This document shows positions 1-62,869 of a stretch of 64,000 nt of DNA, piece after piece. The notes under the pieces are model-generated. The model had not been told where the DNA came from and ran no database searches. It saw only the letters and a list, made by a program, of their open reading frames with translations. The position numbers were made by a program, and so were the translations under genes. The DNA lies in the NCBI GenBank assembly GCA_016283935.1, contig JAEENX010000002.1, positions 1 to 64,000 on the forward strand, read 5' to 3'. Source of the DNA: Bacilli bacterium (lineage in GTDB: Bacteria > Bacillota_I > Bacilli_A > RF39 > UBA660). The first letter of the stretch is position 1. Every line of letters begins with the position of its first letter.

Positions 1-1428
1 AATCTTCGCAAGTGGACTCTCTCCTGTTTCTGTTGGTTCATATTCCGCAACATCAGGAAGTAACAATGGTAAATCTTCTTCCTTCATTGGTTGCCATCCA
101 CATTTTTCACAATAAATCATTGGAATAGGTTCTCCCCAGAATCTTTGTCTAGAGAAAATCCAATCTCTCATCTTATAATTATTAACTCTTCTACCGATTC
201 CTTTTTCTTCTAACATATCAGAGATTTTTTCTCTAGCTTCATCAACTACCATACCATTGAATTCTTCTGAGTTAATCATCTTATATCCATGACCACCCAT
301 ATAATCTCCTTTTTCAATAGCATGTTCAGAAATATCACCACAGTCAATTACTTGGATAATCTCTAAGTTATGTTCTTTAGCATATTCAAAGTCTCTTTGA
401 TCATGTGAAGGTACAGCCATAACTGCTCCTGTACCATAATCTCCTAATACGAAATCTCCTAAGAAAATTGGAACTTCTTTTCCATTAACAGGATTAATTG
501 CTTTAACACCTTTAACTTCTACACCTGTTTTACCTTTATTTAATTCAGTTCTATCCATTGCAGATTTCTTTTTAGTTTCTTCTATATAAGCATTTACTTC
601 ATCAACATTTTCTACTCTTGGCATTAATTCTTTAATTAATTTACCATCAGGTGCAATTACAAAGAATGTAATACCATATATAGTTTCAGGACAAGTAGTA
701 AATATACTAAACTTTCCTCCACCTACTATATCAACATTAACTTCCACACCAGTAGATTTACCAATCCAATTGATTTGACCTAATTTTACTTTTTCAGCAA
801 AATGAGTATCATCTAATCCTTTAAGTAAGTCTTCTGAATAAGAAGCCATCTTTAACATCCATTGACTCTTTTCTTTTTGTTCTACTTGAGAACCACATCT
901 TTCACATACTCCACCAGCAGCATCTTCATTTGATAATACTGTCTTACATGTAGGACACCAGTTTACTGGAATAGTATCCTTGTATGCCATATCATGTTTG
1001 TAGAATTGTAAGAATTGCCATTGAGTCCATTTATAATATTCAGGATCAGTTGTAGAGAATTCTCTACTCCAATCAAATGAGAAACCTAAAGTTTTCATTT
1101 GTCCTTTAAATGTTTTAATATTTTCTTTAACAGCATCTTTTGGATGAATATGATTCTTTATTGCATATTGTTCAGCAGGTGCACCAAATGCATCCCATCC
1201 CATTGGATATAATACATTATATCCTTGCATACGCATCATTCTTGCTATAGCATCTTGAGCAGTATAACTTCTAACATGTCCAACATGTAATCCTGCTCCA
1301 GATGGATATGGGAATTCAACTAATATGTAATAAGGATTTTTTCCTTCATTTTTACATTCAAATGTTTTATGTTCATCCCAATATTGTTGCCATTTCTTTT
1401 CAATTTTTAATGTTTCTTGTATTTCCAT
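1..1428 (-). CDS. leuS: Leucyl-tRNA synthetase, N-terminal part (C-terminus beyond window)
   Basis: Class I synthetase that charges tRNA-Leu. 476 codons are present; the frame is still open at base 1, so the C-terminus lies outside the window. The HIGH signature appears as HVGH (residues 48-51) after the LeuRS-typical EFPYPSGAGL. A zinc-ribbon-like CPTC...CERC pair and most of the CP1 editing domain follow. KMSKS would lie beyond the edge. The ATG at 1428 is 2 nt after the stop of the small gene at 1431-1790. Its SD-like AAAGAAAGG lies in that gene's tail, so the two are almost certainly cotranscribed and probably translationally coupled. Expression should be governed by the Leu T-box leader at 1808-1998. 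Confidence 0.97.
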   Translation of the reverse strand, partial: MEIQETLKIEKKWQQYWDEHKTFECKNEGKNPYYILVEFPYPSGAGLHVGHVRSYTAQDAIARMMRMQGYNVLYPMGWDAFGAPAEQYAIKNHIHPKDAVKENIKTFKGQMKTLGFSFDWSREFSTTDPEYYKWTQWQFLQFYKHDMAYKDTIPVNWCPTCKTVLSNEDAAGGVCERCGSQVEQKEKSQWMLKMASYSEDLLKGLDDTHFAEKVKLGQINWIGKSTGVEVNVDIVGGGKFSIFTTCPETIYGITFFVIAPDGKLIKELMPRVENVDEVNAYIEETKKKSAMDRTELNKGKTGVEVKGVKAINPVNGKEVPIFLGDFVLGDYGTGAVMAVPSHDQRDFEYAKEHNLEIIQVIDCGDISEHAIEKGDYMGGHGYKMINSEEFNGMVVDEAREKISDMLEEKGIGRRVNNYKMRDWIFSRQRFWGEPIPMIYCEKCGWQPMKEEDLPLLLPDVAEYEPTETGESPLAKI

Positions 1429-2032: not shown

Positions 2033-4418
2033 GAAGTTTTAGGAATAATGTAATATATTTTTGGTTAATACCTAATCTTCTTAACTTACGTACTTGAATA
2101 CGTTTCTCTTGAATTGATTTATCACTGAATAATATTTCACCAATAACATTTTTAGTTTCTGTTTTAATTGGTAAGTCATTAAGAATAGAATCAAAGTCAT
2201 CATTAACTAATCTTAATCCATCTATTTCAATGTTTTTACCCTTTAAGTTAACAGTAATTTGTTTTAATGTCGAAATAGCAGGTAATTCTACAATGAAATC
2301 GTTTTCATCATTGTATGTTACTTCACCTTTTACTTTTTCATCACCTACATGGATAATAATTTCATCTGGTTCTTTAGTATTTCTAAATCTTATTCTATAA
2401 CTTCTGAATTTAGGAATAATTCCTGATTTACCAGCTAATGGTCTAATAGTAACAGTAAAATTATTCTTTTGATATGTATAATCTATACCAGTTACTATAA
2501 AGAATCCCTTTTCAAATAATGAACTTAATCCATCATCTTCATATAATTCATATGATGAAGATGCTCCTGGGAATACTTGTATTTCCATGTCTTTAGGTGG
2601 TGTTGTATTATTTAAATCTTTTTCATCTAGTATTGCCATTGGAATAATAGTTCCTGCTTTAGCAAATACTGGATAATCTTCTCTTTTATAGAATGTAGTA
2701 TATCTTCTACCACCTGTATATCTTTTACCATTTGTAAAATCATACCAAGTTCCTTCTGGTAAGAATAGTTTAACAACTGTTCTATCCATGATTGGATCAC
2801 CTTTTGTTGTAATTGGAGCAACAAATAATTGAGATCCAAAGTGATATTCATTTTTATATAATGGTTCATCATATATTTCTGGATATCTATAATATAAAGG
2901 TTGTACTAAAGGTAAACCTGTCTTTGTATATCTATATGCTTCTGAATATATATATGGAATAAGACTATGTCTTAATCTCATATATTGAGCAGTTACAGAT
3001 TGAGTTGTAATATCCCATTTCCATGGTTCTCTTTTATAATATTTACCATCATCTGAAGATAATCTTAATATTGGAGAGAAACATCCAAATTGAACAAATC
3101 TAGAATATAATTCTCCATCTTCAGTTCCTAACTTAAATCCACCTATATCATTTGATATCCATGATAATCCTAAGTTAGATGCTGTTGAATTATATTGAGG
3201 TAACATTTGTAAGTTCTTCCAAGATACAATAGTTTCTCCAGTATATTGAATTGGATATCTATGTGCAGCAAGTAATCCATTTCTTGCAAATGTAATACCA
3301 CGTCTATTTTGAATTTGTTTAAAGTCATTAAAATGATAATGTGTTAATGCTCTTAAAGAAGCTAAATCATTTGGATTGTTATAATCTATCCAGAAGAAAT
3401 CAACACCATAGTTCATAAGTGGATGTATTAAATAATCTAAATATGCTTCTACTATATTTGGATTAAATACATTAAATGGAAGAATTCCTTCTTCTGTTTG
3501 TCTTGTTGCTGCTTTATATGGTAAAAAATAATCTTCTTTAGGAGATATACCTTCTAAAGGATTAACTTTAACAGCAAATCTTATATTTTTACTATGTAAG
3601 AAATCAGTTATTCTTTTTGGTCTTTTAAATAATCTTTCATCAAATGATAATCCTGATTTCATTCTTGGGTTTTGTCTATGCCAGTTATTACCTAACATAA
3701 TAATTGAAACTGGTATTCTATATTTAGTAAATTGATATACTAATTTTTCTAAGTCTTTAGCATTATATTCAACAGTTTTATTCCACCATACACCTAATGC
3801 ATATCTAGGTATTAAAGATGGATAACCAGTTAATTTAAAGTAATCTCTTAAACATGCACCAAAGTCTCTTCTATACATGAATACATATGTATCTATTCTT
3901 GTATCACTTCTCTTACCTAATGAACCATCTTCATTAAAGATTAAGCTATTTGAATCATCAATTGATACAAATCCATCTGTAGAATATAAGCCTTTGTTAT
4001 ATCTTGCATTTCCATCTGCCCCATCAAGTGAATAAGATGTACCACCAAAATTACGAACTTCTGGATGATTAAAATACCAGAATTTATCTGTATTTTTAAG
4101 ATTAATTCTTAAGTTTTGATCAGGTGTCATTCTTGGACCAGCAAATGGTGCTTCTTTTCTATATGTTAATTGAAAATATGAAGTTTCAATTGTTACAAAT
4201 GTTGAATCTTCTTTTCTTTCAAATTTTACTTCTGGAAAGTTTCTAGATTGAACTAATTCAGTTGGTCTATCTTCAAATAATCCTGTTTCAGAATATTCTA
4301 ATCTAATTAGTAATTCTGATAATATGGTAATTCTAAATTTATTACCTCTTATAATATTATTAGTTAAAGGTAATACGCTTTTATAATCGACTTTAAAATG
4401 TTCTTGTAAACCAGCCAT
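2010..4418 (-). CDS. Glycoside hydrolase family 31 (alpha-glucosidase/xylosidase type)
   Basis: 802 aa with GH31 order: N-terminal beta domain (about 1-200), TIM barrel (about 205-530), proximal beta domain and a DUF5110-like distal domain (about 605-680, VFPGASSSYELYEDDG). The nucleophile motif is FFWIDYNNP with Asp345. The usual acid/base motif SGD reads YTGET here, so Glu395 replaces the Asp. No signal peptide is visible, so the enzyme should be cytoplasmic and act on imported oligosaccharides with alpha-linked glucose or xylose. The substrate cannot be read from sequence. A C-terminal helical basic extension (about 745-802) is extra. The ATG at 4418 has GGGTGA upstream. It appears monocistronic; the next promoter overlaps its 3' end. 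Confidence 0.88.
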   Translation of the reverse strand: MAGLQEHFKVDYKSVLPLTNNIIRGNKFRITILSELLIRLEYSETGLFEDRPTELVQSRNFPEVKFERKEDSTFVTIETSYFQLTYRKEAPFAGPRMTPDQNLRINLKNTDKFWYFNHPEVRNFGGTSYSLDGADGNARYNKGLYSTDGFVSIDDSNSLIFNEDGSLGKRSDTRIDTYVFMYRRDFGACLRDYFKLTGYPSLIPRYALGVWWNKTVEYNAKDLEKLVYQFTKYRIPVSIIMLGNNWHRQNPRMKSGLSFDERLFKRPKRITDFLHSKNIRFAVKVNPLEGISPKEDYFLPYKAATRQTEEGILPFNVFNPNIVEAYLDYLIHPLMNYGVDFFWIDYNNPNDLASLRALTHYHFNDFKQIQNRRGITFARNGLLAAHRYPIQYTGETIVSWKNLQMLPQYNSTASNLGLSWISNDIGGFKLGTEDGELYSRFVQFGCFSPILRLSSDDGKYYKREPWKWDITTQSVTAQYMRLRHSLIPYIYSEAYRYTKTGLPLVQPLYYRYPEIYDEPLYKNEYHFGSQLFVAPITTKGDPIMDRTVVKLFLPEGTWYDFTNGKRYTGGRRYTTFYKREDYPVFAKAGTIIPMAILDEKDLNNTTPPKDMEIQVFPGASSSYELYEDDGLSSLFEKGFFIVTGIDYTYQKNNFTVTIRPLAGKSGIIPKFRSYRIRFRNTKEPDEIIIHVGDEKVKGEVTYNDENDFIVELPAISTLKQITVNLKGKNIEIDGLRLVNDDFDSILNDLPIKTETKNVIGEILFSDKSIQEKRIQVRKLRRLGINQKYITLFLKLLEYMAEV

Positions 4419-4462
4419 ATCAATTCACCCTATTCTCTTTAATATTCTATCATATATAGGAA

Positions 4463-6187
4463 TTATTTTCTATATATATTAGTTTTTATAAATGTTAAAA
4501 TTGTTGCTAATGGAAAAATAATTATCATTGGTAATACATATCTAGGATCTTGAGATGGTAAAGATATATATAACAATAATTGAATAATTATTATTGGTAA
4601 TAAAAATAAAATTTTCTTTTTTTCTTTATTTAAAATAGATATAACTATATATATTAAATATATAAATTGATAGAATCCACCACGCCATAGAATATCTTTT
4701 ATCACTGCTATTTCTCCTGTAGTATTTTCTATTATATTAGTTAAATGATGAAAAAAGTTATTATGAGAGAAATCATTTACAACTTCATAATGAATAGAAT
4801 GATTTCTAACTGGAGCCCAATCATATCCATCTACTGGAGTTGATATTTCAAATAATATGGAATCTATATGTGATAATTTAATTATATATTTCATTGGATT
4901 ATCCAATAATAATCTTATATTTGTTTTAACAAATACAGGACCAAGATTATATTGTTCCATTCTCTTTTCTTTTCCTTCTAATATCCATTTTCTACTTAAT
5001 GTATCAGCCCAATATTTATCATAATAAGTTTTCCATTCCTCTGTAGATAAATATTTTTCTAAATCGTTCATGTTATCAAATTCATAATCATCTTTCATAT
5101 AAGAACCTATCATATATGCAGGAGTTGTATATTTTATATAGTATTCATTTTGTACAGCATGTAATATATAATCCCCTATAAAATATGTAATGAACGAAAA
5201 TGATGCTATACACAAGACAATACATGAAATAAATATTCTTGTGAACTCTTTATTTTTTCTATATACTATAACAGCAACAATAAGTGTAAGAACAACCGCT
5301 ATAATTGCAGCATGTCTAAATATAGATGTTAATATTGAAAAAACAAATAAATATATAATATTTCTCTTTGTAATTTTCTTAGAAGTTAATATATCAAAAA
5401 ATGCTGCTGCTAATCCAAATATACTTAAAGAAAATATTGTATCTTTAGGTGCTAGATGATTAAATACATATGGTTGAAAAAATAACATATTCATTATTAA
5501 ATAAACCAATATATTTTTATTATTGAATCTTTCATCTATGATATCTATTATGTATTTATTTATCATTATAAATAATAATCCTTGAATAAATAAGACTCCT
5601 AATAATCCAAATGGCTTAGTAAATATCCACATATATATTTCATATCCTATTGTATGCCAATGAGACCAATAGCCATGATTTACCCAATTTAAAACTCCAT
5701 TTATATCTGGATAAGAATTTAATGACATATTACCAACAAAAGACAATATTGATAATAATGTAATTATTAATAAAGATATTTTTTTAATATCAAAAGACAT
5801 TTCTTTATTAATAATATTTGTTATTTTATTTCTATTATCTATCAAATACGAAATATTTATATATGATGATAATAATATTAATAATGGCAAAGTCGTATAA
5901 AAAATAAACACTTTAGCACCAATAGTAGATGTTAAACATAATTCACTATTTAATACCGATCTATATGATAAAGATATAATATAATATATAGATAATAAAA
6001 TAGAACTAATATTTATTCTGTTATTCTTTATTAAAGTGTATTTTTTTAATACTATTATTGTGATTATAAAAGAGATAACAATAAAATAATAAGCAGAAGA
6101 TATTTCATTTCTAGATATCATACATATTAATATAGATAAAAAGCCAAATATAAATTGTAACAACTTTTTCAAATCAATCTTTTTCAT
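4463..6187 (-). CDS. Polytopic membrane protein, GT-C-like topology
   Basis: 574 aa with roughly 12 hydrophobic helices across the protein and a long extracytoplasmic loop around 340-460. The region near residue 165 (WVNHGYWSHWHTIGYEIYMW) resembles the acidic/His-rich first loop of GT-C-type glycosyltransferases and of uncharacterised families such as DUF6020, but I see no definitive DxD site. A lipid-linked sugar transferase for envelope glycans is plausible but unproven. The gene is divergent from rpsD. A TATAAT with an extended TG (6205-6210) lies 18 nt before its start and faces the rpsD promoter. Confidence 0.65.
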   Translation of the reverse strand: MKKIDLKKLLQFIFGFLSILICMISRNEISSAYYFIVISFIITIIVLKKYTLIKNNRINISSILLSIYYIISLSYRSVLNSELCLTSTIGAKVFIFYTTLPLLILLSSYINISYLIDNRNKITNIINKEMSFDIKKISLLIITLLSILSFVGNMSLNSYPDINGVLNWVNHGYWSHWHTIGYEIYMWIFTKPFGLLGVLFIQGLLFIMINKYIIDIIDERFNNKNILVYLIMNMLFFQPYVFNHLAPKDTIFSLSIFGLAAAFFDILTSKKITKRNIIYLFVFSILTSIFRHAAIIAVVLTLIVAVIVYRKNKEFTRIFISCIVLCIASFSFITYFIGDYILHAVQNEYYIKYTTPAYMIGSYMKDDYEFDNMNDLEKYLSTEEWKTYYDKYWADTLSRKWILEGKEKRMEQYNLGPVFVKTNIRLLLDNPMKYIIKLSHIDSILFEISTPVDGYDWAPVRNHSIHYEVVNDFSHNNFFHHLTNIIENTTGEIAVIKDILWRGGFYQFIYLIYIVISILNKEKKKILFLLPIIIIQLLLYISLPSQDPRYVLPMIIIFPLATILTFIKTNIYRK

Positions 6188-13584: not shown

Positions 13585-15858
13585 CTATTTCATTACACAA
13601 TCTGTGCCTTCTATTTTTACATCAAATACATATCTATAACCATTGAATGCTATACCCGCTTCTGACATAGATGTTTTTTCAACTGATTTTGGATTAATTA
13701 CTGTAGAACCACAATACAACTTCAAGTTAGAAGTAAATGATGATTCAAATAATGTTATTCCCTTAACAGTAGAATGATATTCTCCAGTAGTTGAATATAT
13801 CTCACGATTATTATATGTGAATCTTTGAGTATATTTCTTTGGTTTCATATTAATTGTACATGTACCACTATACTCTGCAATACTACCAGAGAATTTTCTA
13901 GTATTTGGATCAAAACTATAATCTTTGAATCCACCATTACATATTACATTTTGATATTCATAATGATCATCAAATTTTACTGTACTAGTAATCATTGTAT
14001 CAACAGCTTGATTCTTCATATTTATTACATTATTTTCTATTCTACGATCACTATCATGATAATTTATATTAACATTTGCATTAATTGAATTAGATTTACC
14101 AAAGGTAATGGAACAATTTGATTGATTAATTACATTTGAAATTGTAACAGTATATCCATTATGAGTGATATTACCTGATGTACAGAATAATCCATTTAAA
14201 TTTTGATATCCTTCACCATTTGGATATACATTGAATGTGATTGATCCATCATATGGTAATTCAACACTGTCATAATCACCAGAACCATTAAAATATGATA
14301 TTTGAACTTTATATTTTGTTGTTTCACCATTAGATGCATCTTTTGTAACTGGTGTTTTAGTTGTAAATTCTTTAGGAGTATAAACAACTTCTCCATCTGA
14401 ATTTCTAGTCTCACCACTTGTAGTTGTTCCACCATTATTATTAATTGGTGGATTAGTATTATCGTGTTTCCATTTACCATTTGCTGTAGTTCTTACTTTA
14501 GTTGTTCCATTCTTAGTTGTTCTAACATACCTACTTGTTGATTTTAAGTTAAATGTTGCTTGTGGTTTACTATCTGAAACTGTCATAGTATCTTGAATAA
14601 TAGTTATATTATTTATATCTTTAAGAGCAATAATATCTAACATATCAATAGAATTATCATTATTGATATCATATTCAGCACTCCAAGCCATATTTCCTAA
14701 AATCATATTTCTTAGATTATTCATTTCATCATCTGAAATAGCTTTTACTGATGATAAATTAAATAATCCAAATACTAATAATAATCCTAAGAATACTCCT
14801 AATTTTGAATTATTATCATCTTGTAAACTTTGATTTGTTAAATTATCTAAATTAACAGCACCTTCTGTTGATATTTCAGATGTTGTTGTATCATCATCAT
14901 ATGCATATCCATTTGATGATTCAGTAAATGATGAAAAATCATCTGGTAACATATTTTCATCACCAGTATCTTGATTTCCAATGAATACTCCTCTTTCAGG
15001 AATAATTTCTTGTTGAACTGGTGCTACTGGTTCTGCTTTCATCAAATCATTTATATTAGCTTGATGTGCTTGAACAGGTTGTTCTTTAACTTTTTTCTTT
15101 CCCCATTTACCAAGTTTAGCAATTCTAATTTTTTCAGGTTTGTCATCATCATCTATAGTTTTAAATTTCTTTGGTACTTTAGCAAATCTCATCTTTTTAA
15201 CTATATGATTATGATCATGTTTTTTATTATATTCTCTTAAATCTTTAGTAATAATTGTATATCTTATAATTATAAATGCAAATATAATAGCACCTAAGCA
15301 ATATAATACTTTTTTCCAGTTATTATTTAAGTACATATTAATTTGAGTCATGAAAGTTTGTTCTTGAGCAACATAAGATACTGTTCCATCTTTATCATAG
15401 AATACTGTAAAAGTCATAGATGGAGCAGTTTTTAATAACTCATCTGCTGTAGCAACTTTATTATTTGAAAAGTATATCTCAGTTCTTTCACCTGGTTTAA
15501 AATCTTCTTTAATTCTAAAAGTTAAATTAGCATAGTATACTTTTTGAAATCCATAGTCTGAATCTGCTAATATTTTAAATGATTTAAATACTCCATTTGT
15601 TAAATCTTTTCCTTTAGTAACAGTAAAATAATCATTTCCTTCAATACTTACAAATTCTAATTTTTCTTGATTATATACAACAGAGCTCATTACGGCCATT
15701 GTACTTTCTTCTCTTAAACCAAGTTGGATAGTAAATGTATTATCTTTAAGTTCATTTTCCATTTTATATAATACTTCATATTGAACATCTGAAGCATATA
15801 CATTAGATATAAAGAATGTAAAAATCAAAGTTATTATTAATAATAATTTCTTCTTCAT
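13585..15858 (-). CDS. Two-part surface protein: cohesin-like domain, two membrane segments, dockerin-like motif
   Basis: 757 aa. Order: signal peptide (1-22); cohesin-like beta domain (about 27-155, EKLEFVSIEGNDYF... YYANLTFRI); transmembrane helix (about 183-201); Lys-rich then acidic cytoplasmic linker (about 202-350); a second hydrophobic segment that itself looks like a signal peptide (KLGVFLGLLLVFGLFNLSSV, 352-371); a dockerin-type calcium loop (DINNDNSIDMLD, 397-408: D-x-N-x-D-x-x-I-D-x-x-D); a Thr/Gly/Asn linker; and Cys-containing beta repeats to the end. Only one dockerin half-repeat is visible. The layout suggests fusion of a cohesin-membrane protein with a secreted dockerin-bearing protein. 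It forms an operon with the 360-aa relative downstream. Confidence 0.7.
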   Translation of the reverse strand: MKKKLLLIITLIFTFFISNVYASDVQYEVLYKMENELKDNTFTIQLGLREESTMAVMSSVVYNQEKLEFVSIEGNDYFTVTKGKDLTNGVFKSFKILADSDYGFQKVYYANLTFRIKEDFKPGERTEIYFSNNKVATADELLKTAPSMTFTVFYDKDGTVSYVAQEQTFMTQINMYLNNNWKKVLYCLGAIIFAFIIIRYTIITKDLREYNKKHDHNHIVKKMRFAKVPKKFKTIDDDDKPEKIRIAKLGKWGKKKVKEQPVQAHQANINDLMKAEPVAPVQQEIIPERGVFIGNQDTGDENMLPDDFSSFTESSNGYAYDDDTTTSEISTEGAVNLDNLTNQSLQDDNNSKLGVFLGLLLVFGLFNLSSVKAISDDEMNNLRNMILGNMAWSAEYDINNDNSIDMLDIIALKDINNITIIQDTMTVSDSKPQATFNLKSTSRYVRTTKNGTTKVRTTANGKWKHDNTNPPINNNGGTTTSGETRNSDGEVVYTPKEFTTKTPVTKDASNGETTKYKVQISYFNGSGDYDSVELPYDGSITFNVYPNGEGYQNLNGLFCTSGNITHNGYTVTISNVINQSNCSITFGKSNSINANVNINYHDSDRRIENNVINMKNQAVDTMITSTVKFDDHYEYQNVICNGGFKDYSFDPNTRKFSGSIAEYSGTCTINMKPKKYTQRFTYNNREIYSTTGEYHSTVKGITLFESSFTSNLKLYCGSTVINPKSVEKTSMSEAGIAFNGYRYVFDVKIEGTDCVMK

Positions 15859-18503: not shown

Positions 18504-19868
18504 CTAGTATATTGCCCATGAATATCTGGCATAATATCGATTGTTTTCACACTTTTCATCTAAATTATATTCATTATAATCTTCATCAAATATTTCAGGA
18601 TAAAGATCACCATAGTTTTCCAGTTCTTTTTTATATTCATCACAACTAATAAATCTAATTGAAACGTCTGATCCATGAGGATGTTCCATTAAAGTTGTAT
18701 GCAAGTTTTCTAACTTGTTTATTATATTTTCATTAGTTGTCATCAAGCCTTTAACTTCTTTTTCTTCGGCTTTAAACCAACTATATCTTGGGTCAACTAT
18801 ATTTAATTCAGTTCCATGCTCATTATAATAACTATCAGCTATCTGTTGTAAATCTGGTGATAATGTATATGAATAATCTGCATTATCAAGCGGTACAGAT
18901 ATTGATTCTTTAGATAAGTCTAAAGTTTCTTCTATAGCATAATATGGTTTTGGAAATGAGTCAATTGTAACAGTTTGAATTAAATTAGTTTTATTTAAAT
19001 CTGAATATACATTTATATATGATTCATTAGTAAAATAAGTACGATCAATATTTAATGTGAAATATTTATATACAGGCGCCTTGATTCCAAGCATATCCGG
19101 ATAATATTTAAATACATAATCATCAAATACATCTTTCGATGTTAAACATAATTCTTTTTCGTCTGCAGTTAAAGAAAAACTTCCTTCTTCAGTTATTAAT
19201 ATAGCTTTGCATTGATTAATAGTTATTGTAGATTGGAAAGAAAATTCAGTTTTACATGAAGCATTAACTATATATGGAATTAATATAATTATAATAACAC
19301 TTATTGCTTTAAATAACTTTCTTCTTTTATTTACTGCCATATTTAACATAATCATAATAACTATAACAGGTATTGCATATATTAAATCAGCTACTCCTGT
19401 AGGTGGATTTTCTGCTACTTTTGTTGGATTAAATGATAAGTTAAAATTTTGTTTTTCGCCAAATACATATTCTTTATATTCATTTGCAGGAATTTCTTTT
19501 TTATAAGAAATACTAAATCTCATTTTTTTAGATTCACCTGGTTTAATTATTGTCTCTTTTGTATCAAATATATATTCGAAATAATCGGATATATTTTGAA
19601 AAGATGATTTATCTAAAGCATAATCTTCTTCAGTACCATTTTTAACAAATATTTCATAAGTTAAATAATCTCCAACTGATGCCATTTCAATATTTAAATT
19701 AATTTTTTTATTTTCTAGTTTTGCAGATTCTAATTCTTTTGCTTCTGCACTTTTATCAACTAATTTAATTTCTTCAATAGTAATATTATTGTCAGTACAT
19801 GTTTCTGCAAATACTACTGTTGGAATTATTAATAAAATTGAAATAATTAATAATAACACCTTTCTCAT
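18504..19868 (-). CDS. Surface protein with internal NPPTG segment, paralogue 1
   Basis: 454 aa. Signal peptide (1-21, VVFA) then an extracellular beta domain (about 22-150). ENPPTGV (153-159) is followed by a hydrophobic helix (about 161-178) and KRRK, the layout of a sortase cell-wall sorting signal, but in mid-protein. A second hydrophobic segment (about 187-203, ending VNA) resembles a signal peptide and leads to a Cys-containing extracellular domain to the end. Two downstream-numbered genes (19980-21284 and 21315-22634) share this layout and sequence. The function is unknown. It may be a two-domain membrane hairpin protein or a polyprotein cut by sortase and signal peptidase. Confidence 0.75.
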   Translation of the reverse strand: MRKVLLLIISILLIIPTVVFAETCTDNNITIEEIKLVDKSAEAKELESAKLENKKINLNIEMASVGDYLTYEIFVKNGTEEDYALDKSSFQNISDYFEYIFDTKETIIKPGESKKMRFSISYKKEIPANEYKEYVFGEKQNFNLSFNPTKVAENPPTGVADLIYAIPVIVIMIMLNMAVNKRRKLFKAISVIIIILIPYIVNASCKTEFSFQSTITINQCKAILITEEGSFSLTADEKELCLTSKDVFDDYVFKYYPDMLGIKAPVYKYFTLNIDRTYFTNESYINVYSDLNKTNLIQTVTIDSFPKPYYAIEETLDLSKESISVPLDNADYSYTLSPDLQQIADSYYNEHGTELNIVDPRYSWFKAEEKEVKGLMTTNENIINKLENLHTTLMEHPHGSDVSIRFISCDEYKKELENYGDLYPEIFDEDYNEYNLDEKCENNRYYARYSWAIY

Positions 19869-19888
19869 AAACTCACCTACTATATATT

Positions 19889-19903
19889 TATTATAAACTA
19901 ATA
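19889..19903 (-). promoter_or_regulatory. Shared promoter motif (TATTAGTTTATAATA)
   Basis: Contains TATAAT and is identical or one base off at 22655-22669 and 52478-52492, each time a few dozen bases before a surface-protein gene. A canonical -35 is not evident, so an activator or alternative sigma factor may be involved. Confidence 0.5.
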
Positions 19904-19936
19904 TGTAATATACATTTATATTAATTTTTTATAATA

Positions 19937-19950
19937 TACATTTTTATGTA
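19937..19950. repeat. TACAT-N4-ATGTA palindrome, copy 1
   Basis: Perfect 14-nt palindrome, exactly repeated at 22703-22716, upstream of two of the three paralogous surface-protein genes. It looks like an operator, or may be carried along by the gene duplication. Confidence 0.5.
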
Positions 19951-19957
19951 AATAAAA

Positions 19958-19979
19958 AAAGAAACTATTAAGTTTCTTT
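19958..19979 (-). terminator. Terminator after the 434-aa surface protein
   Basis: Stem AAAGAAACT/AGTTTCTTT with a T-run on the minus strand. Confidence 0.75.
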
Positions 19980-21284
19980 TTATCTACCTTCCCATACAGC
20001 ATAATAAGTTGTTCCTGTACATTTTTCAGGTTCTACCATTGCCTTTCCCAACTTTTTAGTATTTCCACCATCTTCTTGTGTATTTTCGCAATTAGTAAAA
20101 CTAATGATATCTACATTTTCAAAAGAAGAATCAAGATATTCAATTTTATTGATAATATTAATATTACTTATTGCAAATTCTCCTTCACCAGTAAATGATG
20201 ATTCATGATATTCGCTAGATTTACCATATCCAATACCAACCATTATTTTATTTTTTAAATCTTCAGATACAGTAAAATATATTTTATTATAATCTCCAAT
20301 TTTATATATAAAATCAGAATCTGCTGAATGAGCTCCTAACAAATTATAGTAATAATGACTAGGAACATCTGATTTTGTTATTATTTTTATTAATTGTGTT
20401 TTATTTTCATCAGAATATACTTTTATATATGAATTATCATTAAATACTGGCCCAATAATTTTAGGATATACGCGATAATATAAAAATGCTGTTGGATTAT
20501 TCGCATCCCACATTCCATAATAACTCCATACGGAATTTATTTTAATAGTAGATCCATCTATCACATCATCATTGCCTAAACATAATTCTTTTACATCTTT
20601 ATCTTCTTCAAAAGATCCAATATCAGTTACTATTTTATAGGCACAATTTTCAACTGTAACTTTGGAATCTATTTTTATATTACATTTGCATACAGCTTTT
20701 ACTATAGTTGGTGCAATAATTGCAAATACTAAGATAATTGCTATTGTTTTAAATGCTCTATTCTTTTTGGAAACATAAAAAACTATAAATCCTAGTATTA
20801 ATAATACAGGAATAAAATATAACAAGCTTTTTACTCCTGTAGGTGGATTAACAATCTTGCCTCCAGTTAATTCTAAATCAAAAGAATTTGTTTCTGAAAA
20901 CATTCCAATAGTAGCATCATTTTTTAATGAAACACTTAATACTATTTCTTTAGTTGAACCAGCAGTTATTGTTTTATTACTACTTGAAATCTTATATTCC
21001 ACATTTTTATAGTTTTTATTAAACATAGATTCATCTAATACATATTCATCTTCAGTATTATTCTTTATAATCAATTTATAATTTATATAATCATTTACTT
21101 TAGTAAATGAAATATCTAAATTAATATTTGTTCCATTTGCTTTTGCTGAATTTAATTCATTTGATCCATCAGATTTTCCAATCATTTCTATTGATTGAAT
21201 TGTAATACCACTTGGATCGCATGTTTCAGCAAATACATTAAATGGTATTAAAAGTATTATTAACAAAACAATTAATCTTTTCAT
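19980..21284 (-). CDS. Surface protein with internal NPPTG segment, paralogue 2
   Basis: 434 aa, with the same plan as its neighbours: signal peptide (1-19, NVFA); extracellular domain with a conserved ETC...GITIQSIEMI opening; NPPTG at 146-150; hydrophobic helix (about 153-171) and SKKNR; then a second signal-peptide-like helix (about 178-195) ending IVKAVCKC; then an extracellular Cys-containing C-terminal domain. It is closest to the gene upstream, which stops 30 nt before its start, so the two are cotranscribed. The repeated SYIKVYSDxNKT-like stretch (about 280-292) is shared by all three paralogues. No enzyme motif is seen. Confidence 0.75.
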   Translation of the reverse strand: MKRLIVLLIILLIPFNVFAETCDPSGITIQSIEMIGKSDGSNELNSAKANGTNINLDISFTKVNDYINYKLIIKNNTEDEYVLDESMFNKNYKNVEYKISSSNKTITAGSTKEIVLSVSLKNDATIGMFSETNSFDLELTGGKIVNPPTGVKSLLYFIPVLLILGFIVFYVSKKNRAFKTIAIILVFAIIAPTIVKAVCKCNIKIDSKVTVENCAYKIVTDIGSFEEDKDVKELCLGNDDVIDGSTIKINSVWSYYGMWDANNPTAFLYYRVYPKIIGPVFNDNSYIKVYSDENKTQLIKIITKSDVPSHYYYNLLGAHSADSDFIYKIGDYNKIYFTVSEDLKNKIMVGIGYGKSSEYHESSFTGEGEFAISNINIINKIEYLDSSFENVDIISFTNCENTQEDGGNTKKLGKAMVEPEKCTGTTYYAVWEGR

Positions 21285-21314
21285 ATAAACTCACCTACTT
21301 TATATATAAAAATA

Positions 21315-22634
21315 CTATTTATAACTCCAAGTTGCATAATAAATATTCCCTGAACATGTAATATTATCACCGCTATGGAACTCAGTATATCCTACTTCAT
21401 ATTCGTATTTTCCTTGACTATTTCTACAATTACTAAAGTACATAGTTGTACTGCTTGTATTCGTATGATTTCTTAAATATTCTATCTTATTTCCTATATC
21501 GTTATTACTAATAATTTCGAAATTTTCAAATGTTTGTGTATAAATATTATTGTCATTTGTATATTTAATATCTAATTCTAATTTATCTGTTAAATCAGAT
21601 GATATATCAAAATATATTTTTTCATAGTTTCCAATAATTATTACTGCATAACTATCTAGATAATCAGAAACAACTATATCATGAGTTTTAAGTAAATAGT
21701 AATAATGATCATATATATCATCTTTAGTTATAGTTTTAATAAGATTTGTCTTTCCTGGATCAGAATAAACTTTAATATATGATGTATCATTAAAGAAAAC
21801 ATCACTAGTTTTATTCTTTAATTTCAAATAAATTATTTCATAATATCCTAAATCATATGAATACGATTCATCCATACTTCTTTGTTGTATTTTATTATAT
21901 TTTTCAAGAATATCTTCAGAAACAATACAAACTTCTTTAGTATCCTTATCAGGTTCAAAGCTACCCTCTGGAGTTCTTAAAATATATTTACAATTTTCAA
22001 CAGTAATTGTTGAATTAATTTTCATATTACATTTGCATACAGCTTTTACTATTGTAGGAATAATTATCAGAAAAGCTAATATTACTGCCACCATTTTAAA
22101 AACATTATTCTTTTTAGCAATTATAAATACCATCAATCCTATTACTATTAATATAGGAATTAAATATATTAATGTTTTTACTCCTGTAGGTGGATTTTCT
22201 ATTTTTCCACCTGTCAAATCTAAATTAAATGTATTTGTTTCTTTAAATCTACTTTCTGTTGGAGTATTTATTAAAGAAACATTTAAAGTTAAATCTTTTG
22301 TTGTTCCTGCTTTTACAACTTTATCATTTGTTTCAAAAGTATATTGAATGTTGCTATATTTTTTATTAAACATAGATTCATCTAATACATAATCATCTTC
22401 TGTATTATTTTTTATTGTTGTTTTATATTTAATAAAATCTTTTTCTTTGGAAAACATAATATCTAAATTTAAAGTTGTTCCATTTACCTTAGCTTCTGTT
22501 AGTTCCCTTGTACTATCAGATTTTTCAATCATTTTTATTGATTGAATTGTAATACCATCAGGATTACAAGTATCTGCATATACGGTTATAGGTATTAAAA
22601 TTATAGCTAATAATAATATACATATATTTCTCAT
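21315..22634 (-). CDS. Surface protein with internal NPPTG segment, paralogue 3
   Basis: 439 aa. Signal peptide (1-20, TVYA), extracellular domain opening DTCNPDGITIQSIKMIEKSD, NPPTG at 147-151, hydrophobic helix with AKKN tail, and a second helix ending IVKAVCKC near 200. The C-terminal extracellular domain has conserved Cys. It is very close to paralogue 2 throughout, so recent tandem duplication is likely. It is the first gene of the two-gene unit, with the shared promoter motif at 22655-22669 and a palindrome at 22703-22716. No sortase gene is in the window. Confidence 0.75.
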   Translation of the reverse strand: MRNICILLLAIILIPITVYADTCNPDGITIQSIKMIEKSDSTRELTEAKVNGTTLNLDIMFSKEKDFIKYKTTIKNNTEDDYVLDESMFNKKYSNIQYTFETNDKVVKAGTTKDLTLNVSLINTPTESRFKETNTFNLDLTGGKIENPPTGVKTLIYLIPILIVIGLMVFIIAKKNNVFKMVAVILAFLIIIPTIVKAVCKCNMKINSTITVENCKYILRTPEGSFEPDKDTKEVCIVSEDILEKYNKIQQRSMDESYSYDLGYYEIIYLKLKNKTSDVFFNDTSYIKVYSDPGKTNLIKTITKDDIYDHYYYLLKTHDIVVSDYLDSYAVIIIGNYEKIYFDISSDLTDKLELDIKYTNDNNIYTQTFENFEIISNNDIGNKIEYLRNHTNTSSTTMYFSNCRNSQGKYEYEVGYTEFHSGDNITCSGNIYYATWSYK

Positions 22635-22654
22635 ATACTCACCTACTATAACTA

Positions 22655-22669
22655 TATTATAAACTATTA
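22655..22669 (-). promoter_or_regulatory. Shared promoter motif, copy 2
   Basis: Minus-strand TAATAGTTTATAATA, one base different from the copies at 19889-19903 and 52478-52492. It contains TATAAT about 20 nt before the gene start. Confidence 0.5.
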
Positions 22670-22702
22670 TGTAATATGTAATTATAATATTTTCTAATAA
22701 TG

Positions 22703-22716
22703 TACATTTTTATGTA
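22703..22716. repeat. TACAT-N4-ATGTA palindrome, copy 2
   Basis: Identical to 19937-19950, at a similar distance upstream of a paralogous gene. Confidence 0.5.
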
Positions 22717-22725
22717 AATAAAAAA

Positions 22726-22747
22726 AAGAAACTAATTAGTTTCTTTT
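22726..22747 (-). terminator. whiA terminator containing the stop codon
   Basis: Perfect palindrome AAAGAAACTAA/TTAGTTTCTTT followed by a T-run on the minus strand; the whiA TAG lies inside. Confidence 0.8.
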
Positions 22748-54770: not shown

Positions 54771-56297
54771 TTATATATCTACTGACATATATTCATATAA
54801 TATTGGATGTTCTCTAGTTCCAAATGATGATATACATGCTTCATATTCTTCATATGATGCTATACCATTGCAATCGTACATACTATTATACCAGTTATTT
54901 TCAAGTTCTTCTGCGTCAAAATTAACAACAGGTCTAATCCCTAATAATTCAGTAGAGTTAACTTGAATAATATTATTTTTGTTTCCTACTGCCCAAATCT
55001 TATTATTAGATGCACCAGTCATAGTCCAATATGCTGCATTTGTACCAATATAAGTATTATTGGATTCATTTATTGTTAATCCATGAATGTTTGCTTCATC
55101 TGCAGTTAATAAACCTACTGGATATTCCAATATATCTTCTTCATTACATTTGTTACTTGGATTATTTGGCTCATATGTATTAGAGTTACACATCTCAACA
55201 TCTTTTAAATATCTTCTGTTTTCTTCATCAAATGTTTCATAAAACCATGTTTCAATTGTATCTAACACATCACTTTCTTCAAAATTAAATGAACCATTTG
55301 AACTATATGATGATTTACCAATAAAAACATCTTCACCTGTATCCATACATTGACCTTGATCATTTGGATGACCATTGTACAAAGCTCTAATATAGAAAGG
55401 ATATCCATAATCTGATACAGCACCCTTTGTACCAGAACTAGATTTTAATTTAGAAGTATCGCCTCCTTTTACGCCTCCTCCACCAGATGATCCACCTGAT
55501 GTATATGAACTTGTAGATAGATATTTCCAACATATTCCATTAAAAATAAAATTATTATGATCATCTATATTATCTCTATGATATGAATAAATATGTGTAG
55601 GAGACCCATATTCATCTAATTCATAATCATATACCATCATAGTTTTTGTTGGGTTCTTTGAAAAATCAACAGAATGAATAAATACTCTTGAACTCTCTTC
55701 AGATTCATGAGTTGGGTCAATATCTAACATTTCTAGTAAGTAATCTTCATTGATAATATTTTCATATTCAAAAGTGAAATTCATAGTTAAATCAAATGAT
55801 TTACCAGTATTATTTAAATCTTCTAATGTTATATCATCTGGTAAATCATATGATATCTTTATTTTTCCATGTTTTATTTTATTATCTAAGAAATGAATTA
55901 TTAAACCTTCTTCTAATGGTTGATCATTTTCATCTAATATTTCTATATTTACTAAGTTCACTATATCAGGATCAGATATACCAAGATCAATTTTAGTTAA
56001 TCTTGCAATTAATGTTCCAACATTAACCATATTAAAATCTATAACGAAATAATCATCTGGATTTTCTAAATTTAAATTAAAATTCATTTTTGTTCTATCA
56101 TTACTATCTATTGTAGCTGTGTCTGTTGGATGAATGTTATTACCTGATAATCTTACATTATCAAATATTACTAAATAACTTACTTCAGCTAAGTTAGTAG
56201 TTCCATTTACTTTAAGAATAGTTGATAAAGTAGCATATCCAACTGTTATAAGTAATAGTAATATTAAAACTATAAATGATATTCTCCTTTTATTCAT
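54771..56297 (-). CDS. SipW-type secreted protein with shared C-terminal module, 4
   Basis: 508 aa. SipW-cognate signal region (VGYATLSTILKVNGTTN, about 19-35), a TasA/camelysin-like beta domain (about 36-185, DDYFVIDFNMVNVGTL), a Gly-rich linker (SSGGGGVKGGDTSK, near 270) and the operon's C-terminal module: CWKYLSTSS, a Cys pair, YPVGLLTADEANIHG, AYWTMTGA and RPVVNF. Unlike its siblings the final GTxxNPYxI is degenerate (GTREHPILYEYM). Last gene of the operon, 3 nt after the previous stop. Confidence 0.78.
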   Translation of the reverse strand: MNKRRISFIVLILLLLITVGYATLSTILKVNGTTNLAEVSYLVIFDNVRLSGNNIHPTDTATIDSNDRTKMNFNLNLENPDDYFVIDFNMVNVGTLIARLTKIDLGISDPDIVNLVNIEILDENDQPLEEGLIIHFLDNKIKHGKIKISYDLPDDITLEDLNNTGKSFDLTMNFTFEYENIINEDYLLEMLDIDPTHESEESSRVFIHSVDFSKNPTKTMMVYDYELDEYGSPTHIYSYHRDNIDDHNNFIFNGICWKYLSTSSYTSGGSSGGGGVKGGDTSKLKSSSGTKGAVSDYGYPFYIRALYNGHPNDQGQCMDTGEDVFIGKSSYSSNGSFNFEESDVLDTIETWFYETFDEENRRYLKDVEMCNSNTYEPNNPSNKCNEEDILEYPVGLLTADEANIHGLTINESNNTYIGTNAAYWTMTGASNNKIWAVGNKNNIIQVNSTELLGIRPVVNFDAEELENNWYNSMYDCNGIASYEEYEACISSFGTREHPILYEYMSVDI

Positions 56298-56300
56298 AAA

Positions 56301-57707
56301 CTAAAAACCTCCCTGTTCAATTCTATATGGATCATATATTGAACCTGAGCCATAGTTAAAAATATCATCAGTAACATGTATTACTGGCCTATAAGCTGTA
56401 GAATCTCCGAAATATTTTAATGTGTCAATAGAATCATATCTATAATATTCAAGAGGTGAGCTTCTATTTGAATATGTATAGCTTCCTAAAATATAATATT
56501 CACATTTACTATTAAACCAATAATACTCACTATAGTTTGCTTGACCAGGTGAAATATAAGTATTATTAAATCCAGCAAATACTAATTCCATAATATCAAC
56601 TGCTGCTATTGGATATGTTAATTCTCCTGTTGCAACACTAAATTGATGACCATTTGTACATTCTAAATTAATATCTTCTTTTGAAAATCCTTCTTCTGGC
56701 ATAGGAGTTTCACAAAAAGGTTCATCAACAATATAATTAGAATAAGATGACAAATTATTTTCATACCAAGTATTGACTTTATTAATTCCATCCATATTTT
56801 GATAATATGTATCTTCATCAGTATTTATATCTCTTAGTAATCGTATAGCAAAACCAGGTACAGTTACATGATAATCATGATATAAACAATAACCGTTTGC
56901 ATCTGGATCACCATTATATAAAAGTTTAACATTTCCGTTTGATGTTGTTCTTATAATTTTCCAACAATGACCTGCAAAGTATGCATGATTTAAAACTTCT
57001 TTATTTCCTCTATAAAATAATATAGGATGTTCATCATTTTCGGTTGGAGCATATACATACAATCCATTATATTCATTATGTGATGTTGAATCGAATAATA
57101 ATGCTCGAGAATTCATATACTCTGTTGGTTGATGAACCCCTAAATAATAATCATTAATATATGATTGATTTACATTTTTAAATTCTATTTCATAAGTAAC
57201 AGTGGTAGATATTTCACCTTTATTTAAATATGTTTCATCTAATGTACTATCTAAATAAAATCTAGTACGAAAAGCAAGTGCTACTCTTGAATGAGGTTGT
57301 ATTTTTTCACCAACTTTAAGAACTTTCCCAGTACTTTTATTATTAACAGATGCATTAATTATAGCCGAAACAGAATCTTCTTTTGTAATTGTTATATTTG
57401 TAATTTCAATTGCAATATCACTATCATTAACTAATTCAGCATATACATAATATTCATCACCAACATCATTGAAAGTTGGTGTTACTGTTATAGTTTTTCC
57501 ATCATTGTTTAAAGAATATAAATTAACGTATTTAGTATCATTAAACATATCATATACATTTTCATAATGAGCACTATATTCATTACGATTAAGCATCATT
57601 TCTCCATTAAAATTAGAAGATATAACAATAGATGCAAATCCAATAGTCATCAAAAATAATACTGGAATTATAATAAACAATTTATATGATTTTATTTTTT
57701 TCTTCAT
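56301..57707 (-). CDS. SipW-type secreted protein with shared C-terminal module, 3
   Basis: 468 aa. Signal segment with MTIGFASIVISSNFNGEM-type SipW pattern (about 20-37), TasA-like domain (about 38-185, GDEYYVYAELVNDSDIAIEI), then the C-terminal module: HCWKIIRTTSNGNVKLLYNG, a Cys-containing DEPFCETPMPEEG, YPIAAVDIMELVFAG and RPVIHVTDD ending GSGSIYDPYRIEQ. The recurrent CWKIIRTT and YNG blocks mark a family I recall as DUF6273/FGE- or lectin-like in gut Firmicutes; exact assignment unsure. Confidence 0.78.
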   Translation of the reverse strand: MKKKIKSYKLFIIIPVLFLMTIGFASIVISSNFNGEMMLNRNEYSAHYENVYDMFNDTKYVNLYSLNNDGKTITVTPTFNDVGDEYYVYAELVNDSDIAIEITNITITKEDSVSAIINASVNNKSTGKVLKVGEKIQPHSRVALAFRTRFYLDSTLDETYLNKGEISTTVTYEIEFKNVNQSYINDYYLGVHQPTEYMNSRALLFDSTSHNEYNGLYVYAPTENDEHPILFYRGNKEVLNHAYFAGHCWKIIRTTSNGNVKLLYNGDPDANGYCLYHDYHVTVPGFAIRLLRDINTDEDTYYQNMDGINKVNTWYENNLSSYSNYIVDEPFCETPMPEEGFSKEDINLECTNGHQFSVATGELTYPIAAVDIMELVFAGFNNTYISPGQANYSEYYWFNSKCEYYILGSYTYSNRSSPLEYYRYDSIDTLKYFGDSTAYRPVIHVTDDIFNYGSGSIYDPYRIEQGGF

Positions 57708-57729
57708 ATTGTATATCTCCTTTCATTTT

Positions 57730-59007
57730 TTATTCTTCGTCTATATAATATGGGTTACTAATAGTTCCCTCACCAGAAATCCTAAATCCTCCATGTAAAT
57801 AAATAACTGGTGTAATATAATATTGTTGTGTATTTCCATATCCTTGTGACACATAAAATTCTTGATCTTGATTTAACAAACCTACATTTTGATTAGTTAT
57901 TGCAGTTCCAGCAAAAAGCACATCATCTATAGATGGTATAGCAACTGGATATACTAATTTTCCATTTGTAATTGAATATTCATCACTGCAATCTCCCCAA
58001 TTCAAATCACTAAGATTACTTGTATTACAAAAAGGTTCATCTGATAGATATGCCTGATACTTAATTAAATTTTTAAAATACCATGCATCTATATCTCTTT
58101 GTCTTATTGAACCAACATATGGCTCTCCTGTAGCAGTATAAAAATAATTAATATAATTACCGAATATATCATCACAAGATGTTCCATTATATGATAATTT
58201 TAATCCACCAGTTGATGTCGTTCTTATTATTCTCCAACATCTATCACCAAATAACATAAAATTTGTATTATTTACGGTACCCCAGCTACCTTTATAATTA
58301 TTAAAGAAAAATATAGGATTTGGATCATCTAAGGTATTATCGATAACATAAAATCCCATGGAATTATATCCATATTCTTCAGAACTTATAAGTTTTGCTT
58401 CTCTATTTAATAATCTACTATATGTTTTACTTGTATTATGTGTTTCTTCATAAGATTTCATTGAACTGTTAACAAAGTTCAATGAAATACTAGAACTAAA
58501 ATAAGAATCTGTATCTATTGAACGAGTATCAGTTACATCATCAGCAACTCTATATCTTATTTCAAATATAATTGATGTAGTTGAATTACCTTCAAAAAAG
58601 TCTTCTTCTTTTACTTCTAAATAACTATCTGCGTAGAACATTCTAATATTAAACATGTCATATCCATTAGTGTGATTAATATTTATATCTGATAACTTAG
58701 CACCTAAATTACCATGATTAACAACGTCAAATTGAAATCTATATACATCTCCTACTTTTAATAATTCAATATCAAAATCTATAACATTATGTTCTGCATC
58801 AGTTATATGTGCATCTTCTGTAACACTTGCAGTATTTTCTAATATTTGAATATTTTCAATACGTACATCATAATTAACTGTTCCTGTTGCTACTGTTCCG
58901 TTTATTGTTAATTTAGTTGTTATTGCAGCATATCCAATTATCATTGAAAGCATTAATAATAAAATAATTAATACTCTTAGTCCTTTTTTTCTAGGTCTAA
59001 TTTTCAT
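57730..59007 (-). CDS. SipW-type secreted protein with shared C-terminal module, 2
   Basis: 425 aa. SipW-cognate signal (IIGYAAITTKLTINGTV), TasA-like domain (about 40-180, GDVYRFQFDVVNHGNLGAKL), C-terminal module with RCWRIIRTTSTGGLKLSYNG, DEPFCNTSNL, YPVAIPSIDDVLFAG and TPVIYLHGGFRISGEGTI SNPY-type ending. The start overlaps the preceding stop (ATGA), so translation is coupled. It is the shortest of the four module proteins. Confidence 0.8.
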   Translation of the reverse strand: MKIRPRKKGLRVLIILLLMLSMIIGYAAITTKLTINGTVATGTVNYDVRIENIQILENTASVTEDAHITDAEHNVIDFDIELLKVGDVYRFQFDVVNHGNLGAKLSDININHTNGYDMFNIRMFYADSYLEVKEEDFFEGNSTTSIIFEIRYRVADDVTDTRSIDTDSYFSSSISLNFVNSSMKSYEETHNTSKTYSRLLNREAKLISSEEYGYNSMGFYVIDNTLDDPNPIFFFNNYKGSWGTVNNTNFMLFGDRCWRIIRTTSTGGLKLSYNGTSCDDIFGNYINYFYTATGEPYVGSIRQRDIDAWYFKNLIKYQAYLSDEPFCNTSNLSDLNWGDCSDEYSITNGKLVYPVAIPSIDDVLFAGTAITNQNVGLLNQDQEFYVSQGYGNTQQYYITPVIYLHGGFRISGEGTISNPYYIDEE

Positions 59008-60479: not shown

Positions 60480-60501
60480 TTAACATCTACCTCCTATCTA
60501 A

Positions 60502-61122
60502 TTATTTTTTCTTCTCTTTTGGTATCTCTACATCTCTAATTGGAGATACTACAAAAGATCTATTATTGAATTTGATAATTGTTGTATTTTCAATTCCATC
60601 TAATATTTTAGAATCTTTATCATAATTATCTAATTCTCTATTTTCTCTTTCTAATCTTATTTGTTTCTTCTTTTCTTCCTCCCTTAGCATTCCATCAAGA
60701 ACTGCTACTACATCTTTGTTTTTTCTTAGAATAAAGAAACAATATTCTCTTCGATCTAATAATACAAAAGTACAAGAATTAACATCTAAATAATAAAATA
60801 TAGGTTTTCTTACTTCTACCTGAGCATCTATTAAATCTTCAATACTATTTACTTTTATAATATTTCTTTTTTCAATACTAGGTACTTCATCAACTTTTAT
60901 TAATACAGCATCAAATGTTTTTAATATTTCTTTTAAATTACTTTTATATATCTTATTTTCATCTTTACTTTCAATATAAGCTATAAGCCATAAAGTAAAA
61001 GAAAAAGCAAATGCTATACCAGTCACTAAAGTATATTCAAATAAATCAAATACACATAAAGGAATAGTAAAAACTAAAGCTAATATCCATAATACTAGAA
61101 GTTTATTCTTATAAATAATCAT
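60502..61122 (-). CDS. Two-helix membrane protein of the SipW-like operon (DUF5305-like)
   Basis: 206 aa. Two N-terminal hydrophobic helices (about 6-24 and 31-49), then a soluble, probably cytoplasmic domain. The stretch IIKVNSIEDLIDAQVEVRKP resembles DUF5305-type proteins found next to SipW-like peptidases. A basic/acidic coil (REEEKKKQIRLERENREL) and a final VVSPIRDVEIPKEKKK follow. It stops 1 nt before the peptidase stop region and is coupled to it. Possibly an accessory or scaffold factor for export; assignment is tentative. Confidence 0.6.
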   Translation of the reverse strand: MIIYKNKLLVLWILALVFTIPLCVFDLFEYTLVTGIAFAFSFTLWLIAYIESKDENKIYKSNLKEILKTFDAVLIKVDEVPSIEKRNIIKVNSIEDLIDAQVEVRKPIFYYLDVNSCTFVLLDRREYCFFILRKNKDVVAVLDGMLREEEKKKQIRLERENRELDNYDKDSKILDGIENTTIIKFNNRSFVVSPIRDVEIPKEKKK

Positions 61123-61123
61123 A

Positions 61124-62272: not shown

Positions 62273-62293
62273 ATTGATCTTTCCTTTTAATTA

Positions 62294-62857: not shown

Positions 62858-62869
62858 ATAAACTCTCCT

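Follow-up and report, generated by a model that had tools for sequence, protein, structure and literature searches.

Sortase signals are usually read as C-terminal, whereas more than 60 proteins with unrelated cargo described here carry a complete internal one. Another signal peptide follows it directly, and the sites for both cuts are strictly conserved. What such an arrangement does is the question raised by three tandem genes in the small draft genome of an uncultured Bacilli bacterium (GCA_016283935.1; 1.29 Mb, 27 contigs, low guanine-plus-cytosine content). They lie on the minus strand at 18504-19868 (protein 1), 19980-21284 (protein 2), and 21315-22634 (protein 3) of the window, by which we mean the whole stretch of DNA analysed, positions 1-64,000 of the forward strand of contig JAEENX010000002.1. 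A sequence-only reading of these genes had left two possibilities: two-helix hairpin proteins with two outside domains, or polyproteins split by sortase and signal peptidase. We consider it somewhat better than an even chance that a transmembrane (TM) hairpin would be excised by two cuts from within a circularly permuted immunoglobulin-like (Ig-like) domain, and that the cargo would then be held by a beta-strand on the wall-anchored half.

Architecture of the three tandem proteins

Each of the three open reading frames is preceded by a ribosome-binding site of the gtaggtgagt type, and each product matches the module profile described below. By hydropathy, every one of them consists of an N-terminal signal peptide, a domain of ~125 residues, the motif NPPTG, a hydrophobic helix, and a K/R-rich stretch ending in FK; then comes another hydrophobic segment, and last a Cys-containing portion of ~240-250 residues. 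The layout given in the sequence-only reading was thus confirmed in all three proteins. Its second segment is indeed hydrophobic with a Cys near its end, but that end reads V-K-A before V-C, or V-N-A before S-C, which is a V-x-A site of the signal peptidase I type.

Protein 3 (439 residues) is transcribed first in the tandem and gave a profile match of 4.7e-66. All of the following features are on the minus strand. Its first signal peptide (residues 1-20, 22575-22634) ends in V-Y-A and is followed by D-T-C, the start of the predicted wall-anchored half, an Ig-like N domain with a lone Cys23 (residues 21-146, 22197-22574). The internal sorting motif NPPTG, found by pattern match (residues 147-151, 22182-22196), leads into TM helix 1 with the basic stretch KKNNVFK, as judged by hydropathy (residues 152-180, 22095-22181), and then into the internal second signal peptide ending in I-V-K-A (residues 181-198, 22041-22094). 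The predicted C chain would start with Cys200 and a conserved, amphipathic, donor-like strand (residues 199-214, 21993-22040), and continue into a Cys-containing cargo domain (21318-21992) which is outside known families, with no Pfam or NCBIfam match above cut-off.

The same parts recur in the other two proteins. In protein 2 (434 residues), pattern matching placed NPPTG at residues 146-150 (20835-20849), and the second signal peptide, also ending in I-V-K-A, occupies residues 180-197 (20694-20747); the predicted C chain (19983-20693) would begin with V-C-K-C-N-I-K-I as its strand, ahead of the Cys-containing domain. Protein 1 (454 residues) is the most diverged of the trio, with NPPTG matched at residues 154-158 (19395-19409), a second signal peptide with a basic lead-in ending in I-V-N-A (residues 184-203, 19260-19319), and a predicted C chain (18507-19259) whose strand begins S-C-K-T-E-F-S-F, again followed by a Cys-containing domain. 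The signal is clearly not C-terminal, since the window proteins continue for ~280-300 residues beyond the motif, and a homologue, L077, for more than 2000. Pfam and NCBIfam searches with the three window proteins gave matches below cut-off only, and the module profile had no match among PDB sequences.

Two other readings of the second segment were tried and rejected. A lipobox does not fit, because KAV or NAS precede the Cys and 53/65 homologues have no Cys there. Translation starting internally, at the signal peptide in the middle of the protein, was rejected as well, since protein 1 has no Met at that point.

Before several of the module genes, a terminator-like hairpin is followed by similar leaders (TTTACATAAAAATGTA.. 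/ ATTACATATTA..AGTTTATAAT), at ~19870-19960 and ~22640-22740 of the window, and upstream of 9854 in L027. It is possible that they form a shared operator.

Sorting signals and sortases in the genome

The sequence-only reading had proposed a search for NPPTG substrates and sortases as a check. Across the genome, 9 ordinary C-terminal NPxTG sorting signals and 7 internal ones were found, the latter in the 3 window genes, in 2 tandem genes on contig C4, and in one gene each on C10 and C7, where the cargo consists of LRR_5 and InlB-type repeats, respectively. The C-terminal signals of this genome end in KK..xFK, and the internal ones have the same KK..xFK directly before the second hydrophobic segment. 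Three sortases are encoded, two of them class B above the NCBIfam TIGR03064 cut-off and one of class C/D type, together with penicillin-binding protein transpeptidases and signal-peptidase-type S24/S26 proteins. In studied species, class B sortases act on NPQTN- or (S/P)PxTG-like motifs (PMC5118464), and the two class B enzymes are predicted to be the cognate sortases of the NPPTG modules. Neither of the outcomes named as refuting in the sequence-only reading, a lack of sortases or a plain transmembrane segment, is thus indicated, and the match of these enzymes to NPPTG is a prediction from sequence.

The third sortase raises an alternative, in which the N domain would be linked to another protein in a pilus-like manner instead of to peptidoglycan. 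Contig C7 carries the class C/D-like sortase, an adjacent LPxTG-like protein, and one internal-signal protein, as such a linkage would have it. However, the modules have NPxT in common with the ordinary single anchors of their genomes, and the class C/D-like locus has its own VPNTG signal, so we regard this alternative as very improbable. The VPNTG signal is at the C-terminus of a 541-residue surface protein (L026:402-2631, G000 contig C7) adjoining the class C/D-like sortase, and these two may possibly be a pilus-type pair. On the same contig, L026:4439-6178 encodes a class B sortase fused, before its TM helix, to an apparently cytoplasmic N-terminal domain of ~270 residues; similar long sortase frames of ~540-580 residues occur in other genomes of the family.

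Conservation of the two predicted cutting sites

A profile of the module, defined as the first ~200 residues, had matches in many genomes of the same bacterial family. In total, 66 full modules were collected, 36 of which entered the first alignment and profile, while 30 were found afterwards and independently. The first alignment had 39 rows, 3 of them incomplete modules, and its columns are numbered here as in protein 3. In these 39 rows, entropy was lowest at N76 in the domain, at N147, P148 and T150 in the motif, and at A20 and A198. A20, at the first signal peptidase site, was present in 36/38 homologues, and A198, at the second, in 35/39 rows.

NPxT or SPxT occurred in 64/66 full modules (34/36 of the first set and 30/30 of the later one), and [VITASGC]-x-A was found at the aligned position of the second site in 62/66 (35/36 and 27/30, the latter rising to 29/30 in a small window), although these absolute frequencies are somewhat inflated, as the retrieval profiles contain the motif and V-x-A columns. 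For this reason it is safer to go by how a column ranks within the whole profile, and by that measure the motif and second-site columns were more conserved than nearly all others. As a control, polytopic proteins encoded at the same loci were examined, and such a triplet was present at 26/150 (17%) of their TM-segment ends, with a tolerance window of 12 residues. With 7 copies in one genome, 66 across the family, and these site frequencies compared to the control, the module layout is not due to chance.

These numbers bear on the first possibility of the sequence-only reading, a plain, uncut two-helix hairpin membrane protein, whose two external parts would jointly form one permuted Ig-like domain. 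The two hydrophobic segments are indeed close together, joined by a short basic loop, and the permuted domain would fold just as well if left intact. It leaves unexplained, however, why NPxT and V-x-A are invariant, the latter against a background of 17% at ordinary helix ends, and why the internal segment resembles the C-terminal sorting signals of the genome. We therefore disfavour the unprocessed hairpin and consider it quite unlikely. Since the sortase site and the second signal peptidase site are near-invariant in otherwise diverged proteins, double processing is the favoured reading.

A constant strand and a predicted permuted domain

The cargo past the second site is unrelated among members, being assigned to LRR_5, List_Bact_rpt/Flg_new, or DUF285, or left unassigned. 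Despite this variety, the ~14 residues past the second cut follow one alternating beta-strand pattern in all of them: across up to 65 homologues, columns 204, 206, 210, and 212 were hydrophobic in 93-100%, and columns 203, 205, 207, 209, and 211 in 5-15%. The constant strand and the interchangeable cargo are thus features of the alignment itself.

AlphaFold (AF2) modelling of residues 1-215 of protein 3 gave an Ig-like N domain, with a predicted local distance difference test (pLDDT) score of ~71-93 across residues 31-140, and a strand at residues 200-213 as assigned by DSSP, with a mean pLDDT of ~77 across 201-215. Since this construct offers no other partner, the post-cut strand is predicted to pair with the Ig-like N domain. 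Structural matches of the model were PapD/HYDIN-like, and alignments to single Ig/PapD-like domains of known structure spanned the hairpin from around residue 22-27 to 210-215, as if the strand completed the domain in the model. One such match was 2e6j (111 residues, Z 8.7, root-mean-square deviation 2.8, model range 19..215). Z-scores of 7-9 on a model built from four sequences point only to a common Ig-like arrangement, and not to a family assignment.

A further indication was obtained from stand-alone relatives of the N domain, which are ~165-200 residues long, have TasA-like leaders, and possess an extra first strand, LxINGxAxI, that is absent from the module N domain. Their mean profile score was 50.1 bits when the post-cut strand was placed before the N domain, compared to 46.0 bits without the strand and 46.7 +/- 0.6 bits (maximum 48.5, n=20) with a column-shuffled strand in the same place. 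Appending the strand as the last of the domain, which was considered as well, gave 45.9 bits and hence no gain over 46.0. This result suggests a circular permutation, in which the first strand of the domain has come to lie after both the sorting signal and the signal peptide that follows it. The stand-alone relatives had only weak DUF11/HYDIN/BsaA-like matches.

In the window itself, a run of TasA-like secreted proteins with GYATLSTxLxxNG leaders lies at 54771-63916 on the minus strand. Within this run, 61124-62272 encodes a SipW/archaeal-type membrane signal peptidase (TIGR02228, 92 bits, cut-off 51.85), and two members, at 57730-59007 and 62294-62857, weakly match the module N-domain profile.

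Paired cysteines

In 10 modules of the first set, a lone N-domain Cys 3-5 residues past the first cut is accompanied by a Cys 2 residues past the second, and the same pair is seen in two further modules, L116 and L124. Over 65 modules, 12 had both Cys, none had either one alone (0 and 0), and 53 had neither; positions in L112, L116, and L124 were read from the sequences by hand, on account of inserted residues. On the tree, the pair requires 3 changes, at least 2 of which are forced by supported branches, so shared descent accounts for part, but not clearly all, of the co-occurrence. The simplest reading of the pair would be a disulfide between the two halves.

The strand and the Cys pair together bear on another alternative, in which both cuts occur and the C-terminal chain is freely released, so that one gene would yield a wall protein and a secreted protein in equimolar amounts. 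The conserved sortase and signal peptidase sites are as expected for such a release, and the cargo chains examined have no C-terminal anchor. On the other hand, release gives no reason for ~14 constant residues at the start of chains with unrelated cargo, nor for a post-cut Cys that co-occurs with the lone N-domain Cys, and in the AF2 model the two parts are paired. We consider free release fairly unlikely.

Distribution of the module

Order- and class-level searches, in samples of 385 and 395 genomes and at the thresholds used, gave no match outside the family to which the window belongs. A scan of genome contigs found one relative, L100. Peptidoglycan and srtA/B genes have been described for RF39-type Bacilli (PMC10868615), to which the lineage probably belongs, and a sortase was encoded in 129/145 genomes sampled from the family.

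Proposed mechanism and its strength

We propose that each gene encodes one precursor, which would be inserted in the membrane as a two-helix hairpin, its two large parts both lying outside. The first signal peptide would be taken off by signal peptidase I, a class B sortase would cut after the T of NPxT and join the N-terminal Ig-like domain to peptidoglycan, and signal peptidase I would cut again past the V-x-A at the end of the second helix, so that the membrane hairpin of ~48 residues would be excised. The hairpin sits inside an Ig-like domain that is predicted to be circularly permuted, so the cargo chain would now begin with the displaced first beta-strand of that domain. Strand complementation would then hold the otherwise anchorless cargo on the wall-anchored half, with reinforcement by a disulfide in some members. 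The split by sortase and signal peptidase, which was the second possibility of the sequence-only reading, is supported by the conservation of the sites, the presence of sortases, and the matching C-terminal signals. That reading had not anticipated what probably becomes of the second half, which is predicted to pair by its strand with the wall-anchored half and, in some members, may also be joined to it by a disulfide.

Several points weigh against this mechanism. Both cleavages, the attachment to the wall, and the retention of the cargo are steps that we infer; the AF2 models rest on four sequences, and the permutation test covers a strand of 13 columns. The fifth residue of the motif is loose, being Gly in 30/64 modules and another residue in 34/64, though loose motifs are also found at C-termini: genome G082 has ordinary C-terminal signals that include NPMTK and NPQTT, with an internal NPLTK alongside. 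None of 16 sortase-free genomes matched the module profile (0/16), a co-occurrence that is weak and partly built in, because the profile itself contains the sorting signal. Finally, two neighbouring giant modules in L072 (1242-5828 and 5923-9765) keep the hairpin and the second V-x-A but have NSRL instead of NPxT, while two other modules of the same genome retain NPNTG, and the hairpin may therefore sometimes stay.

The L072 modules are what would be expected if one enzyme only, signal peptidase or sortase, made a cut and the remaining helix held the complex in the membrane, with transfer to the wall slow or conditional. As an account of the whole family we believe a single cut to be unlikely, since most members, whether from the profile set or the independent set, show almost no variation at either site.

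If double excision with strand-held cargo is true, it would account for the wall fixation of cargo that has no anchor of its own, and would join sortase anchoring with donor-strand complementation; the module would provide a naturally occurring design by which one gene displays two chains. With one strand common to all and cargo that varies, cargo chains could also be exchanged in trans among wall-anchored acceptors, and a few tandem genes would then give rise to combinatorial surface coats. Such a general display pathway, with the hairpin excised by two different proteases, the halves held by donor-strand complementation, and cargo possibly swapped in trans, is a speculative extension that we think improbable at present.

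Comparison with known systems

Like sortase-anchored proteins, the modules have a signal peptide, a motif followed by a helix and basic residues, and a sortase in the genome. They share the NPxT core, the loose fifth residue, the TM helix, and the basic tail with class B substrates (S. aureus NPQTN, C. difficile (S/P)PxTG), but in those substrates the signal is at the C-terminus with nothing after it, whereas in the modules it is internal.

A related two-part layout without a sortase signal may be present at 13585-15858 on the minus strand of the window, in a protein of 757 residues with a signal peptide, a cohesin-like exodomain recognised by eye, a TM segment, a cytoplasmic loop of ~140 residues, a second signal-peptide-like segment ending in SSVKA, and a dockerin-like repeat. 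It has no NPxTG and no Pfam match above cut-off.

TasA fibres are an established case of strand complementation from one chain to the next (PMC9674648). In TasA/TapA, a beta-sandwich is completed by the N-terminal strand of another chain, and the AF2 strand pairing, the structural alignment ranges, and the permuted profile suggest that the modules may do something comparable. TasA is not sortase-anchored, however, and its donor comes from another subunit, while donor and acceptor of the modules would come from one precursor. The module proteins had no match to the TasA/CalY (camelysin) family in Pfam or NCBIfam.

The nearest known system is found in the M26 IgA1 proteases and zinc metalloproteases (Zmps) of streptococci and Gemella (IgA1P, ZmpB, ZmpC, and ZmpD), which have an LPXTG at the N-terminal end. 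In the open-access literature, with subscription papers mostly outside its scope, our search for an internal sorting signal with a second signal peptide found nothing closer. In these enzymes, too, the sorting motif is near the N-terminus, with dependence on sortase A. The start of the mature enzyme is reported to lie 56 residues past LPXTG (PMC9637739, PMC7939560; original work by Bender & Weiser 2006, as cited in PMC7695701), a distance similar to the 51 residues between N147 and A198 in the modules. An M26-type protein of another family (L205, G560 contig C5) has a leader, a short N part, and two adjacent hydrophobic segments, the second ending in V-R-A, although no LPxTG motif was found in it. 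As a separate observation, an M26_N-like match at 4102-4794 of G190 contig C1 lies within an open frame of 26,554 residues, an extraordinarily long surface protein if real.

The differences are nevertheless clear. M26/Zmp proteins use LPXTG and sortase A, have a short N part without the Ig-like domain, and form one enzyme family, whereas the modules use NPxT, with class B sortases as their predicted partners, and are a reusable unit on unrelated cargo. Neither strand complementation nor paired Cys is described in the M26/Zmp literature examined, and there was no match to Pfam M26 or G5 in the module proteins, or to M26_N in their own genome. Having another motif class, another N domain, and many cargo types, the modules are best seen as working like M26/Zmp proteins without being members of that group. 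If the proposed mechanism is true, the N-terminal LPXTG of the IgA1 protease/Zmp proteins, which is poorly understood, could be interpreted along similar lines and in a form open to testing.

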